DNA of 64,000 nucleotides from Rhizobium lusitanum (GTDB lineage: Bacteria > Pseudomonadota > Alphaproteobacteria > Rhizobiales > Rhizobiaceae): NCBI RefSeq assembly GCF_014189535.1, contig NZ_CP050308.1, positions 1,116,001 through 1,180,000 of the forward strand, written 5' to 3'. A program made the translations under genes and the position numbers. A model generated the notes under the pieces. That model saw only the letters and a list, made by a program, of their open reading frames with translations. It had not been told where the DNA came from and did not search any database. The number at the start of each line of letters is the position of its first letter. The stretch's first letter is position 1. Below, piece after piece: positions 2,003-5,229 of the stretch.

Positions 2003-3715
2003 TCAGCCCTTCTTCGCCTTGATATCGAGCACCCGATTCGCCGCCGAAACGATCGCCTCGAGGGAAGCCGCGACGATATTGGTGTTGATGCCAGCACCGA
2101 AGAGCTTGCCGCCGGGATAGGAGGTCTCGACATAGGAGATCGCCGCAGCGTTCGAGCCATGTTGCAGCGAATGCTCGGAATAGTCCTCGACTGTCATCTG
2201 AATGCCGAGATAGATCGAGAGAGCGTTGATGAAGCCATCGATCGGGCCGTTGCCACGGCCTTCAATGCGCTTCATCTCGCCGTTGTCGGTAATCTCGGCG
2301 GCGACAATGCGCTGCCCCTTGTGCTCGGGATCGGCGAAGGTGTGGTGATCGACAAAGCGGATACGGCCGTCAGGCTGCGTCACGTAGCGCTCGATGAAGT
2401 GCTCATAGATCCGCTTGGCCGGCAGTTCCTTGCCTTCTTCATCGGTGATCCGCTGGATCTCCTCGCGATATTCCACCTGCAGATTGCGTGGCAGATTGAG
2501 GCCGTAATCCTGCTGCATGATGTAGGCGATGCCGCCCTTGCCCGACTGCGAGTTGATGCGGATGATCGCCTCGTAGGAGCGGCCGACGTCCTGCGGATCG
2601 ATCGGCAAATACGGCACTTCCCAGACGGGATGGTTGGCGACCTTCGACGCCTTCATGCCCTTGTTGATCGCATCCTGATGCGAGCCGGAAAAGGCGGTGT
2701 AGACCAGTTCGCCGACGTAAGGATGACGCTCGCCGATTGCCATCTGGTTGGAATATTCAAAGACGTCCTTCATGCGCTCGATATTGGAGCAGTCGAGCTC
2801 CGGATCGACGCCTTGCGTGAACATGTTCAGCGCCATGGTGACGACATCGACATTGCCGGTGCGCTCGCCATTGCCAAACAAGGTGCCTTCGACGCGATCG
2901 GCGCCGGCCAGGAGCGCCAGCTCGGCGGCAGCGATGCCGGTGCCGCGGTCATTATGCGGATGCAGGGAAATCAACAGGTTTTCGCGATTGTCGAGATTGC
3001 GGCACATCCATTCGATCTGGTCGGCATAGATGTTCGGCGTTGCCATTTCGACGGTCGACGGCAGATTGATGATCAGCTTGTTGTCCGGCGTCGGCTTCAC
3101 CACCTCGATGACAGCATTGCAGATTTCCAGCGCCACATCCAGCTCGGTGCCGGTAAAGCTTTCCGGCGAATATTCGAAACGGTAGCCGCCGCCGGCCTTG
3201 GCCGCCATGTCGGTGATCATCTTGGCCGCATCGACGGCGATCTGCTTGATGCCCTGCACATCCTTCGCGAACACCACGCGGCGCTGCAATTCGCTGGTGG
3301 AATTGTAGAAATGCACGATCGGCTTGTTAGCGCCTTCCAGGGATTCGAAAGTGCGGGTGATCAACTCCGGCCGGCATTGCACCAGAACCTGCAGCGACAC
3401 ATCGTCCGGCACATTGCCCTGCTCGATGCACCAGCGGGCAAAATCGAAATCGGTCTGCGAGGCCGAGGGAAAACCGATCTCGATTTCCTTGAAACCCATG
3501 TCCAGCAACAGCTGGAACATGCGGGCCTTGCGGTCGTGGCCCATCGGGTCGACCAGCGCCTGATTGCCGTCACGCAGATCCACGGAACACCAGATCGGCG
3601 CCTTGGTGATGACCTTTGACGGCCAGGTTCGGTCGGGAATGTTGATCTGCGGATAAGAGCGGTACTTCACCGCTGCTTCGGGCATGCCTTTGGGGGAATG
3701 GCTGTTCGCGTCCAT
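2003..3715 (-). CDS. leuA: 2-isopropylmalate synthase
   Basis: Condenses acetyl-CoA with 2-oxoisovalerate in the first committed step of leucine synthesis (cytosol). The 570-residue length fits the longer LeuA type. The HMGL-like barrel starts with SVDLRDGNQ (metal-binding Asp about residue 46), and the metal motif SLHPHNDRG lies near residue 250. The C-terminal third is the leucine-binding regulatory domain, ending with AISYVETSYPGGK and the invariant Gly-rich stretch. AAAGGAAGAG precedes the ATG. Upstream on the same strand is a leader ORF with a run of four Leu codons (3875-4000), so leuA is probably controlled by leucine supply at the RNA level as well as by allosteric feedback. I chose the MDANSH start because of the ribosome-binding site. 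Confidence 0.96.
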   Translation of the reverse strand: MDANSHSPKGMPEAAVKYRSYPQINIPDRTWPSKVITKAPIWCSVDLRDGNQALVDPMGHDRKARMFQLLLDMGFKEIEIGFPSASQTDFDFARWCIEQGNVPDDVSLQVLVQCRPELITRTFESLEGANKPIVHFYNSTSELQRRVVFAKDVQGIKQIAVDAAKMITDMAAKAGGGYRFEYSPESFTGTELDVALEICNAVIEVVKPTPDNKLIINLPSTVEMATPNIYADQIEWMCRNLDNRENLLISLHPHNDRGTGIAAAELALLAGADRVEGTLFGNGERTGNVDVVTMALNMFTQGVDPELDCSNIERMKDVFEYSNQMAIGERHPYVGELVYTAFSGSHQDAINKGMKASKVANHPVWEVPYLPIDPQDVGRSYEAIIRINSQSGKGGIAYIMQQDYGLNLPRNLQVEYREEIQRITDEEGKELPAKRIYEHFIERYVTQPDGRIRFVDHHTFADPEHKGQRIVAAEITDNGEMKRIEGRGNGPIDGFINALSIYLGIQMTVEDYSEHSLQHGSNAAAISYVETSYPGGKLFGAGINTNIVAASLEAIVSAANRVLDIKAKKG

Positions 3716-3874
3716 GGTTTCGTCTCTTCCTTTCCCGTCATTTGCCCCGCGTATTAACCGATCACAGGCGGCTTGGCGATGACAAATGCGGACCCGCTAG
3801 GGGTATGCTGTCGATTTTGGGGATATGTCTCGAGGAGCGATGGCCTGGCGGGCTTTACGGCCGCCGAGCGCCCC

Positions 3875-4000
3875 TCAAAGGACCCGGCAACCGCGCGTAA
3901 GGCCGAGAAGAAGAAGCGAAGTGAGGGCGCGCGTATTGTCACGCAGGGCAATGCGCCCACGTACAATCTGCTCAGAAATCTTTGCGCCAGTCGTCTTCAT
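3875..4000 (-). CDS. Predicted leuA leader peptide with Leu-codon run
   Basis: A 41-codon ORF 159 bases upstream of leuA on the same strand. It begins MKTTGAKISEQIV and contains ALTSLLLLGLTR, with the Leu codons CTC, CTT, CTT, CTT, CTC and CTT close together (residues 26-34). Such a cluster is the hallmark of a leader peptide that senses charged tRNA-Leu. No Shine-Dalgarno precedes its ATG. Instead a promoter-like TTGCTT-N17-TATAAG ends seven bases before the A of ATG, which suggests a leaderless mRNA like trpL later in this window. I see no U-tract terminator between it and leuA. The pyrimidine-rich Leu codons can pair with the leuA ribosome-binding site instead. The ORF and Leu run are directly seen; the mechanism is inferred. 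No gene symbol is established. Confidence 0.65.
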   Translation of the reverse strand: MKTTGAKISEQIVRGRIALRDNTRALTSLLLLGLTRGCRVL

Positions 4001-4007
4001 GACCGCG

Positions 4008-4036
4008 CTTATAGCCGCGCGGCGGAAAGGAAGCAA
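4008..4036 (-). promoter_or_regulatory. Predicted promoter of the leuA leader transcript
   Basis: On the minus strand, TTGCTT (4031-4036) and TATAAG (4008-4013) are separated by exactly 17 bases. The leader ATG begins seven bases after the -10 box, so the A of ATG would be at or near +1. The -35 box lies just past the stop codon of the upstream permease gene, which is on the same strand. Confidence 0.6.
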
Positions 4037-4044
4037 CCCCCTGC

Positions 4045-5229
4045 TTATCTTTTCAGCATCTGCACCAAATGCGAGAGCGCCATCATCAACAAGCCGGCAA
4101 TCAGGCCCCAGAAGGCGCCGGAAATCCCGGCAAAGGAAACGCCGGATGCCGTAACGAGAAACGTGACCGCCGCCGCCTCACGCGATTCTACTCTCTGAAA
4201 AGCGTTCATAGCCGAGTTGGACAGAGCGCCGACCAGCGCCAGCCCCGCGACCGCCTCGATCAGGACCGGCGGCGCCAAGGTCACGAAGGCGATGACGGCG
4301 CTCGCGAGCAATCCGAGAATGATATAGACGACGCCTGCAATAATCGCCGCCCAATAACGCCGCTTGGGATCGGCATGCGCGTCCTGCCCAGCGCACATCG
4401 CGGCCGTGACGGCGGCGAGATTGACGGCATTGCCGCCGAAGGGCGCGCTGAACAGCGAGAACAGGCCGGTGACGGCAAAGAGCGGGCCGGGCTTCGGATC
4501 ATAATGATGCACCTTCAGCACCGCGATCCCCGGAATATTCTGCGACGCCATGGTGACGATAAACAGCGGCAGCGCGATGGAGATAAGCCCGGCGACGGTG
4601 AAGACCGGCCTGACCAGTTCGACGCTCGGCAGCAACGAATGCTCCAGCGACATCAGCGCTCCATCCGGTATATTCACGCCGAAGGCTAGCACCAGCGCAA
4701 AGGCGACCACCGCCGCCGGCACCGCCCAGAGCCGCTTGACCGCGCCGACCACGATCCAGGCAAGGACGATGGGCAGGCCAAGCATTGGATTGAAGGCGAT
4801 CGCGTTGACCGGCGCAAAGCAGAGCCCGATCAGCACACCGGCCAGCATCGCATTCGCCAGCGGCGCCGGAATAGCCGCCACAGCGCGCCCAAGCGGCCGG
4901 AACAGTCCGGCAATCACGATCAGCACCGCGCAGACCAAAAACGCGCCAACTGCCGCCGGAAAACCGCCCTCGATCGGGCCAGTACTGGCAAGCAACGCAG
5001 CCCCTGGCGTTGACCAGGCGATGCTGATCGGCATTTTCGTCACCGCACTGACCACAATGGCGCAAATACCCATGGAAACCGACAGGGCCATCAGCCCGGA
5101 CGCCGCCTGCACATCCGTCGCCCCAACTGACTGCAACCCGTGCACGATGACAGCAAAGGAACTGGCAAAGCCGACAAAAGCGATGAGGCAGCCCATGAAC
5201 AGGCTTTGAAGGGAGAAATCTTTGAGCAT
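4045..5229 (-). CDS. BenE-family benzoate/H+ symporter-like permease
   Basis: A 394-residue polytopic inner-membrane protein of the BenE family, which imports benzoate or related aromatic acids with protons. Seen: near-continuous hydrophobic segments (11-12 predicted helices), family-like stretches such as SIAWSTPGAALL near residue 75 and FSAPFGGNAVNLAAVTAAMC in the second half. I chose MLKDFSLQSLF because the family usually begins just before the first helix. An ATG 13 codons upstream (5268) is possible, and neither has a strong ribosome-binding site. No aromatic-degradation genes are nearby, so the substrate is unproven. The leuA leader promoter lies immediately downstream. Confidence 0.85.
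   Translation of the reverse strand: MLKDFSLQSLFMGCLIAFVGFASSFAVIVHGLQSVGATDVQAASGLMALSVSMGICAIVVSAVTKMPISIAWSTPGAALLASTGPIEGGFPAAVGAFLVCAVLIVIAGLFRPLGRAVAAIPAPLANAMLAGVLIGLCFAPVNAIAFNPMLGLPIVLAWIVVGAVKRLWAVPAAVVAFALVLAFGVNIPDGALMSLEHSLLPSVELVRPVFTVAGLISIALPLFIVTMASQNIPGIAVLKVHHYDPKPGPLFAVTGLFSLFSAPFGGNAVNLAAVTAAMCAGQDAHADPKRRYWAAIIAGVVYIILGLLASAVIAFVTLAPPVLIEAVAGLALVGALSNSAMNAFQRVESREAAAVTFLVTASGVSFAGISGAFWGLIAGLLMMALSHLVQMLKR

Follow-up and report, generated by a model that had tools for sequence, protein, structure and literature searches.

The leader of leuA in the window, by which we mean the whole 64,000-nucleotide stretch of DNA analysed here, probably acts as a ribosome-dependent translational attenuator of leuA, and regulation by leucine is predicted. 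We give this reading a probability of roughly 0.63. The strongest conserved feature of the leader, which the first-pass annotation of this DNA did not notice, is a pseudoknot that spans the stop codon of the leader ORF.

The leuA leader and its predicted switch

The leader and leuA comprise the following features:
4008..4036, minus strand: promoter, with a −35 element TTGCTT at 4036-4031, a 17-nt spacer and a −10 element TATAAG at 4013-4008
3875..4000, minus strand: leader ORF of 41 codons plus TGA, encoding the peptide MKTTGAKISEQIVRGRIALRDNTRALTSLLLLGLTRGCRVL; the mRNA is probably leaderless
3899..3925, minus strand: leucine control codons, CTC at 3925-3923, CTT CTT CTT CTC at 3916-3905 and CTT at 3901-3899
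3735..3791, minus strand: predicted hairpin directly upstream of the leuA Shine-Dalgarno (SD) sequence, CCGCATTTG ... CAAATGACGG, present in minimum-energy folds only
3725..3734, minus strand: leuA ribosome-binding site GAAAGGAAGA, the predicted partner of the Leu codons
2003..3715, minus strand: leuA, encoding a 570-aa 2-isopropylmalate synthase of the TIGR00970 type (767.9 and 767.6 bits; cut-off 697.4)

The leader ATG at 4000 follows, 44 nt later, a benE-like transporter gene on the minus strand whose 3' end is at 4045, and the leader stop codon TGA (3877-3875, minus strand) lies 159 nt upstream of the leuA start. Six Leu residues fall within leader residues 26-34 (Leu26 CTC; Leu29-32 CTT CTT CTT CTC; Leu34 CTT), in agreement with the first-pass annotation, which had placed a 41-codon Leu-rich ORF with these codons ahead of leuA. 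Position 4036 is the first base of the −35 element, and a longer ORF, of 53 aa, has its TTG start there as well; the conserved start is the ATG at 4000. Within the genus, divergence over leader codons 1-25 is 0.125, 0.124 and 0.278 at the first, second and third codon positions, and judged by sequence this excess at the third position is a coding signature.

A 451-base query found matches in 36 other genomes, all of the same genus (first sample), and in 0 of 24 genomes from other families of the same order. With a 126-base query, 148 of 297 genomes of the GTDB family were matched, in 60 of 109 genera, a count of DNA matches and not of ORFs read in each genome. From 84 further loci that were read, leaders were extracted by script for 82, giving 119 with the genus set; of the other two loci, L077 has a leader by eye and L124 is without leuA. 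Rows removed before the counts were L038-L040 (the same genomes as others), L124, and L077 (missed by the peptide pattern). Conservation in relatives, which the first-pass annotation had proposed as a check, holds for the ORF and its Leu codons: the 41-codon ORF, ending SLLLLGLTRGCRV[L/R], is kept with its Leu run in 37/37 genus sequences, the window's own included, and an ORF with a Leu run occurs at 82/84 of the further loci, where the run is partly a product of selection, since the 82 leaders were chosen by a Leu-run pattern after the DNA match. Each of the 119 leaders has 4-7 Leu within its last 16 codons, again partly by selection. In their last 13 codons, Leu is encoded by CTT 427 times, CTC 180 times, CTG 21 times and CTA 3 times; in the 46 long ORFs of the window, Leu codon usage is CTG 41%, CTC 31% and CTT 15%. 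The peptides end mainly in one of two ways, LLLLGLTRGCRV or LLLLGLIGDRRAR. We consider that the leader is conserved beyond chance. Leader length ranges from 32 to 45 codons and is 41 codons in 78/119, a constancy that is flattered by the script, which chose the length nearest 40 codons in the 34/82 non-genus leaders where several in-frame ATGs were eligible. Codons 1-25 (3926-4000 in the window) vary in sequence and hardly in number, the latter partly through this choice of start.

The promoter described in the first-pass annotation, with 17-base spacing and seven bases from its end to the ATG, is found as stated (TTGCTT-17-TATAAG), and its geometry recurs in relatives, where the −35 TTG and the −10 TATAA stand at a constant distance from the ATG. 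Relative to the ATG, T, T and G occupy −36, −35 and −34 in 97, 106 and 90 of the 119 leaders, and T, A, T, A and A occupy −13 to −9 in 95, 91, 81, 75 and 69 of them, the 37 genus leaders among the 119 having been chosen by a pattern that requires TATA before the ATG. Because the promoter hexamers hold their position relative to the ATG, the A of the leader ATG is probably also the first transcribed base, and the mRNA would then be leaderless, promoter spacing being the evidence for this start.

Pairing of the Leu-codon run TCTTCTTCTC with GAAAGGAAGA (3734-3725), also claimed in the first-pass annotation, involves 9/10 positions, one of them G-U. The minimum-energy nested fold of the window leader contains stem 1 of the pseudoknot and a closing helix of the Leu codons with the leuA ribosome-binding site, and in the ribosome-free ensemble the Leu region is the partner of 0.83 of the site bases. 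Taken as a single sequence, the leader folds no more stably than shuffled sequences do (z −0.92; 37/200 shuffles as good), so the case rests on comparison among relatives.

We calculated the accessibility of the leuA SD with ribosomes placed at different positions on the leader. For the window leader, across two temperatures, two footprints and three RNA lengths, the probability that the SD is unpaired is 0.11-0.18 with no ribosome and 0.11-0.13 with a ribosome at the stop codon, rises to 0.54-0.87 with a ribosome on codons 29-34, and is 0.12-0.22 with one on codon 10. Over the 119 leaders the mean is 0.27 with no ribosome, 0.44 with a ribosome on the Leu run and 0.28 with one at the stop codon, the Leu-run value exceeding the stop value in 98/119; the corresponding means are 0.23, 0.46 and 0.22 for the 37 genus leaders, and 0.32, 0.38 and 0.33 for the 39 leaders of the second peptide type (clade 2). 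Shuffling the 22 nt before leuA lowered the mean opening effect from 0.22 to 0.085 in 12 representatives. The observed effect was reached by 0/15 SD shuffles in L001, L031 and L064 and by 1-5/15 in six other representatives; in L020, L055 and L058 it was not beyond the SD shuffles, of which 10, 15 and 14 of 15 reached it. Thus, the earlier proposal that a stalled ribosome frees the leuA site is favoured by calculation in the window leader and the genus, but the opening is small in the distant clade.

In relatives, the duplex of the Leu run with the SD has a mean energy of −15.9 kcal/mol, compared with −13.3 kcal/mol for shuffled SDs, but the advantage is only moderate: the duplex falls in the best 5% of shuffles for 22/117, with a median rank of 19 of 100. 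Among 43 other gene starts in the window, 3 pair with the Leu run as well as the leuA start does. On these models, the pairing of Leu codons with the SD appears well supported in the window and the genus and is uncertain in distant relatives.

A scan of 3300-4400 for intrinsic terminators gave 0 terminator-like sites, versus a mean of 1.2 in shuffles, and the claim that no terminator precedes leuA therefore holds. Because the terminator is absent, the leader does not appear to be a classical transcription attenuator. Termination by Rho is another matter. Release of the ribosome at the leader stop codon might expose the untranslated leader to Rho, whose action might be blocked by a ribosome held at the Leu codons or the pseudoknot. 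Such attenuation would suit both the absent intrinsic terminator and the long untranslated spacer, which measures 91-235 nt (median 158) from the first base of the leader stop to the scripted leuA start. It has no need, however, of the complementarity between Leu codons and SD that dominates the ensemble in the window leader, and within the genus the spacer is less conserved than the core. We regard Rho-dependent attenuation as unlikely.

The pseudoknot across the leader stop codon

The pseudoknot is made up of four strands:
3883..3893, minus strand: A5, the 5' arm of stem 1, in the last leader codons
3869..3876, minus strand: x, the loop strand of stem 2, which overlaps the TGA stop, GAGGGGCG
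3858..3868, minus strand: A3, the 3' arm of stem 1
3832..3839, minus strand: x', the downstream strand of stem 2, CGCTCCTC

Stem 1 lies directly after the Leu run, and its 11 pairs join the final leader codons to a strand just beyond the stop codon. We examined both stems in an alignment (A2) of the 94 distinct sequences among 117 core sequences, L074 and L085 being left out for want of CTCC. In stem 1, 99.7% of cells are paired and 8/11 pairs vary while remaining paired, one of them being G-C in 56 and A-U in 36 of the 94 sequences. Stem 2 joins the loop strand AGGAGCG to a downstream CGCTCCT, whose CTCC lies 34-53 nt, most often 39-41 nt, from the first base of the stop codon; over the 7 pairs counted, 95.3% of cells are paired, both sides have changed at 3 pairs, and the outermost pair is unpaired in 30/94 sequences. 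For both helices together, 98.0% of cells are paired, versus 34.6-55.5% when the partners are slid by 1-3 columns, and 43 cells have changed on both sides, versus 16.4 in shuffles. L074 and L085 pair by eye, and L074 adds a G-C to A-U double change at a pair that is invariant in A2. These comparisons indicate that the leader contains an H-type pseudoknot with compensatory changes.

Vienna folds are unable to represent the pseudoknot. RNAalifold found stem 1 unprompted in the 94 family sequences. From the 37 genus sequences, in which the pseudoknot region hardly varies, it returned instead of stem 1 a nested fold, with x:x' enclosing a helix of A3 with downstream sequence; this fold shows no double changes and may be a real second state. 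We also considered x' (CGCTCCTC) as a second anti-Shine-Dalgarno strand and rejected it, as its duplex with the SD (−9.3 kcal/mol) is no better than those with shuffled SDs (−9.9 kcal/mol). We likewise considered, by sequence, whether the Leu run upstream of the pseudoknot could be a site of programmed frameshifting, and recognised no slippery heptamer.

A search of 385 genomes of the class matched 4, a figure that does not imply absence elsewhere, because the filters lose weak matches when more than 40 genomes are searched. The four are the window's own genome, L246, L247 and L248. L246 and L247 belong to another family, and their matches are both upstream of leuA; stem 1 is kept, and by eye stem 2 consists of ACGGC with GCCGT. 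L248 (E 2.9e-4) is likely a false match, with no adjoining leuA by tblastn.

The degree of conservation raises the possibility that the pseudoknot itself binds a regulator protein or a ligand and that the Leu run is secondary, as proposed for Actinobacteria in part of the text of PMC1262725. The stem arms and CTTCTCGGCCTTA are indeed strongly conserved, wobble bases included. Between lineages, however, the stem arms and loop strand change by compensation, and the Leu run is kept throughout the 119 leaders, if partly by selection. A regulator site of this kind is thus, in our estimation, quite unlikely.

At 3899-3907, CTC GGC CTT, the wobble bases are kept in nearly all relatives, and this segment can pair with GGYCGA (3857-3862, the end of A3). 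The resulting helix has 96.0% of cells paired; it has no double changes, stays within its shuffles and is a possible competing helix. Helices that exclude one another, stem 1 versus either this one or x:x' with A3:downstream, together with a leader peptide carrying control codons, are what would be expected of classical transcription attenuation with an intrinsic terminator, as at trpL in the same window. That explanation is very unlikely, given that the window has no terminator-like site in the leuA leader, that by our own version of the terminator definition such sites occur in only 5/119 leaders and in inconsistent places, and that the pairing of the Leu codons with A3 is not beyond shuffles.

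Comparison with other leaders

The LEU element upstream of actinobacterial leuA is described in part of the text of Seliverstov et al. 2005 (PMC1262725) as having a uORF with a Leu run, a pseudoknot, a base stem in which the Leu codons pair with the SD, and an alternative hairpin. The same portion of that paper calls its mode of regulation unknown in 2005 and states that mutations in the S. coelicolor leuA leader are not consistent with classical attenuation. The rhizobial leader resembles this element in lying upstream of leuA and in its leader ORF with a Leu run. The pseudoknot topology is also the same, in that stem 1 starts within the final codons of the leader, its loop holds the stop codon, and stem 2 ties this loop to a downstream strand. 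As for the base stem between Leu codons and SD described in that portion of PMC1262725, the corresponding pairing calculated for the rhizobial leaders is strong in the window, moderate on average and weak in clade 2.

For a direct comparison we used the best 80 of at least 586 actinobacterial leuA loci. A pattern matched 64 of these 80, and 59 sequences were aligned, 57 of them distinct, with L162, L182, L193, L200 and L203 left out. Throughout this alignment, which is limited to the best 80 loci, two helices are seen: CCGCGACGGG at the leader end joins CCCGTCGCGG on the far side of the stop codon, and GACCGG in the loop binds a downstream CCGGTC; 99.6% and 90.7% of cells are paired, one mostly unpaired position included, and 96.0% together. 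No covariation beyond shuffles was observed in the 59 aligned sequences, because so little varies. The two types of leader differ in stem 2, which is GACCGG/CCGGTC in Actinobacteria and AGGAGCG/CGCTCCT in the window. They differ also in length, the actinobacterial leaders among the best 80 loci often having about 13 codons versus 41 in the window, and in the candidate leuA start, which is closer to the stop codon in most of 18 actinobacterial loci from that sample. Covariance model R1 reached a best E of 0.31 against the best 80 of at least 586 loci, and sequence homology was not detected; 16/21 of its matches up to E 5 in these loci sit at the element, on the plus strand. Calculated masking of the SD is slight in the same 80 loci, the unpaired probability being 0.429 with no ribosome, 0.455 with one on the Leu run and 0.416 with one at the stop codon, and the Leu-run value is above the stop value in 48/79 leaders. 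By analogy, the rhizobial leader would work like the LEU element without being a member of it by descent.

The enzymes downstream are also of one type. The window LeuA and 3/3 actinobacterial proteins tested score over the TIGR00970 cut-off, which is reached by only 1/14 control genomes. In 297 genomes of the order, R1 was found in 18 and a LeuA over the TIGR00970 cut-off in 39; since all 18 fall among the 39, the element and the enzyme type go together. We took upstream stretches for 20/21 of the TIGR00970-type leuA genes of this order sample that have no R1 match, and several of them have Leu-rich leaders of other designs. In eight loci from other families of the order (L231, L233-L235, L238-L241), a different Leu leader ends in LLLSRP* or LLLSCP*. 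In L234, L235 and L238-L240, CCCCTGAG, stop codon included, can pair with downstream CTCAGGGG, and by sequence these five leaders look like a second, nested design of leuA leader. No Leu-rich leader was found in L226, L232, L244 and L245 by pattern search of the upstream stretch. In a 19-kb search, weak R1 matches were obtained upstream of TIGR00970 leuA in L227, L229, L236, L232 and L226 (E 0.0028, 0.0002, 5e-5, 0.00035 and 0.0036, respectively), and these stretches are possible diverged forms; the leader of L227 and L229 ends in LLRLSGPTF*. In L246 the leader, at 1488-1542, has 18 codons, MFDLGGILLLGLTGARRA, and its ATG closely follows a TTGACA-TATAAG promoter; the length of this leader falls between those of the actinobacterial and rhizobial leaders.

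Attenuators of other biosynthetic genes offer further points of comparison. The enterobacterial leu attenuator (Rfam Leu_leader) acts through a transcription terminator. It shares with the window leader a Leu-codon leader peptide before leuA and differs in its terminator-based mechanism; no Rfam family matches the window leader region at E up to 1. The sole Rfam match in the window, RcsR1 (96.5 bits), lies elsewhere and overlaps a trpL-type leader recognised by eye on the minus strand at 15243-15129, MNMSLNNNVSWWWAR, which has three Trp codons and a hairpin with a T-run. Like the leuA leader, the rhizobial trpL attenuator places a uORF containing control codons upstream of a biosynthetic gene; it differs in its hairpin with a T-run, which the leuA leader is without. 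According to parts of PMC7298713 and PMC10117765, the trpL uORF is leaderless in S. meliloti. A passage of PMC1273637 mentions an ilvB leader peptide of alpha-proteobacteria (Vitreschak et al. 2004); it is a leader peptide for branched-chain amino acids from the bacterial class to which the window belongs, and it precedes another gene. It is very improbable that the leuA leader ORF encodes a small protein acting in trans, as part of PMC7298713 reports for S. meliloti peTrpL, for although the reading frame is kept in 119 leaders, the front part differs widely in sequence between genera and the 3' part is constrained as RNA. In the open-access literature searched, which excludes Vitreschak 2004 and Lopatovskaya 2010, we found no description of a rhizobial leuA leader, and the word leuA is absent from the main text, as far as available, of the S. 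meliloti Ribo-seq paper (PMC10117765).

Proposed mechanism and significance

We propose that the leaderless 41-codon uORF would be translated from a transcript starting at the leader ATG. By default, and likewise once a ribosome has reached the stop codon, the leuA site would be closed by long-range pairing: its purine-rich sequence would bind the pyrimidine-rich Leu codons about 170 nt away. When charged Leu-tRNA is scarce, a ribosome would be held on the Leu run and mask the Leu strand, leaving the leuA site open. Stem 1 begins at leader nt 108. Judged by the general size of a ribosome footprint, a ribosome decoding codons 29-32 in its A site should extend to about nt 98-107 and leave stem 1 free, and one at the stop codon should cover stem 1. 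The stalled ribosome would therefore stop just short of the pseudoknot, which begins a few codons on and could form alongside it, and the pseudoknot would be unfolded once the ribosome sits at the stop codon, with stem 1 and x beneath it. The pseudoknot may compact the leader, bring the Leu codons to the leuA site and slow the ribosome at the Leu run. In this proposal, the ORF, its codons, the promoter geometry, the pseudoknot pairings and the absence of a terminator are read from the sequence, and the opening of the site is calculated; we infer the leaderless start, the stalling and the role of the pseudoknot.

More tentatively, and at somewhat less than even odds, an attenuator of this design, with leaderless uORF, pseudoknot and leucine control, may be the standard control of actinobacterial-type (TIGR00970) leuA in Rhizobiaceae-like Alphaproteobacteria. 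Its occurrence in both Actinobacteria and Rhizobiales would then reflect either two origins or joint movement with the gene; the stalled ribosome would be the switch and the stop-codon pseudoknot the brake.

The anatomy of the LEU element is thus met in genetically tractable rhizobia, where natural compensatory variants and a calculable switch make the question of its mode of regulation directly testable. If the proposed mechanism is correct, a stop-codon pseudoknot would be added to the known attenuator designs, and a large group of plant symbionts, together with related bacteria, would control leucine synthesis by translation attenuation from a leaderless uORF and not by a terminator.
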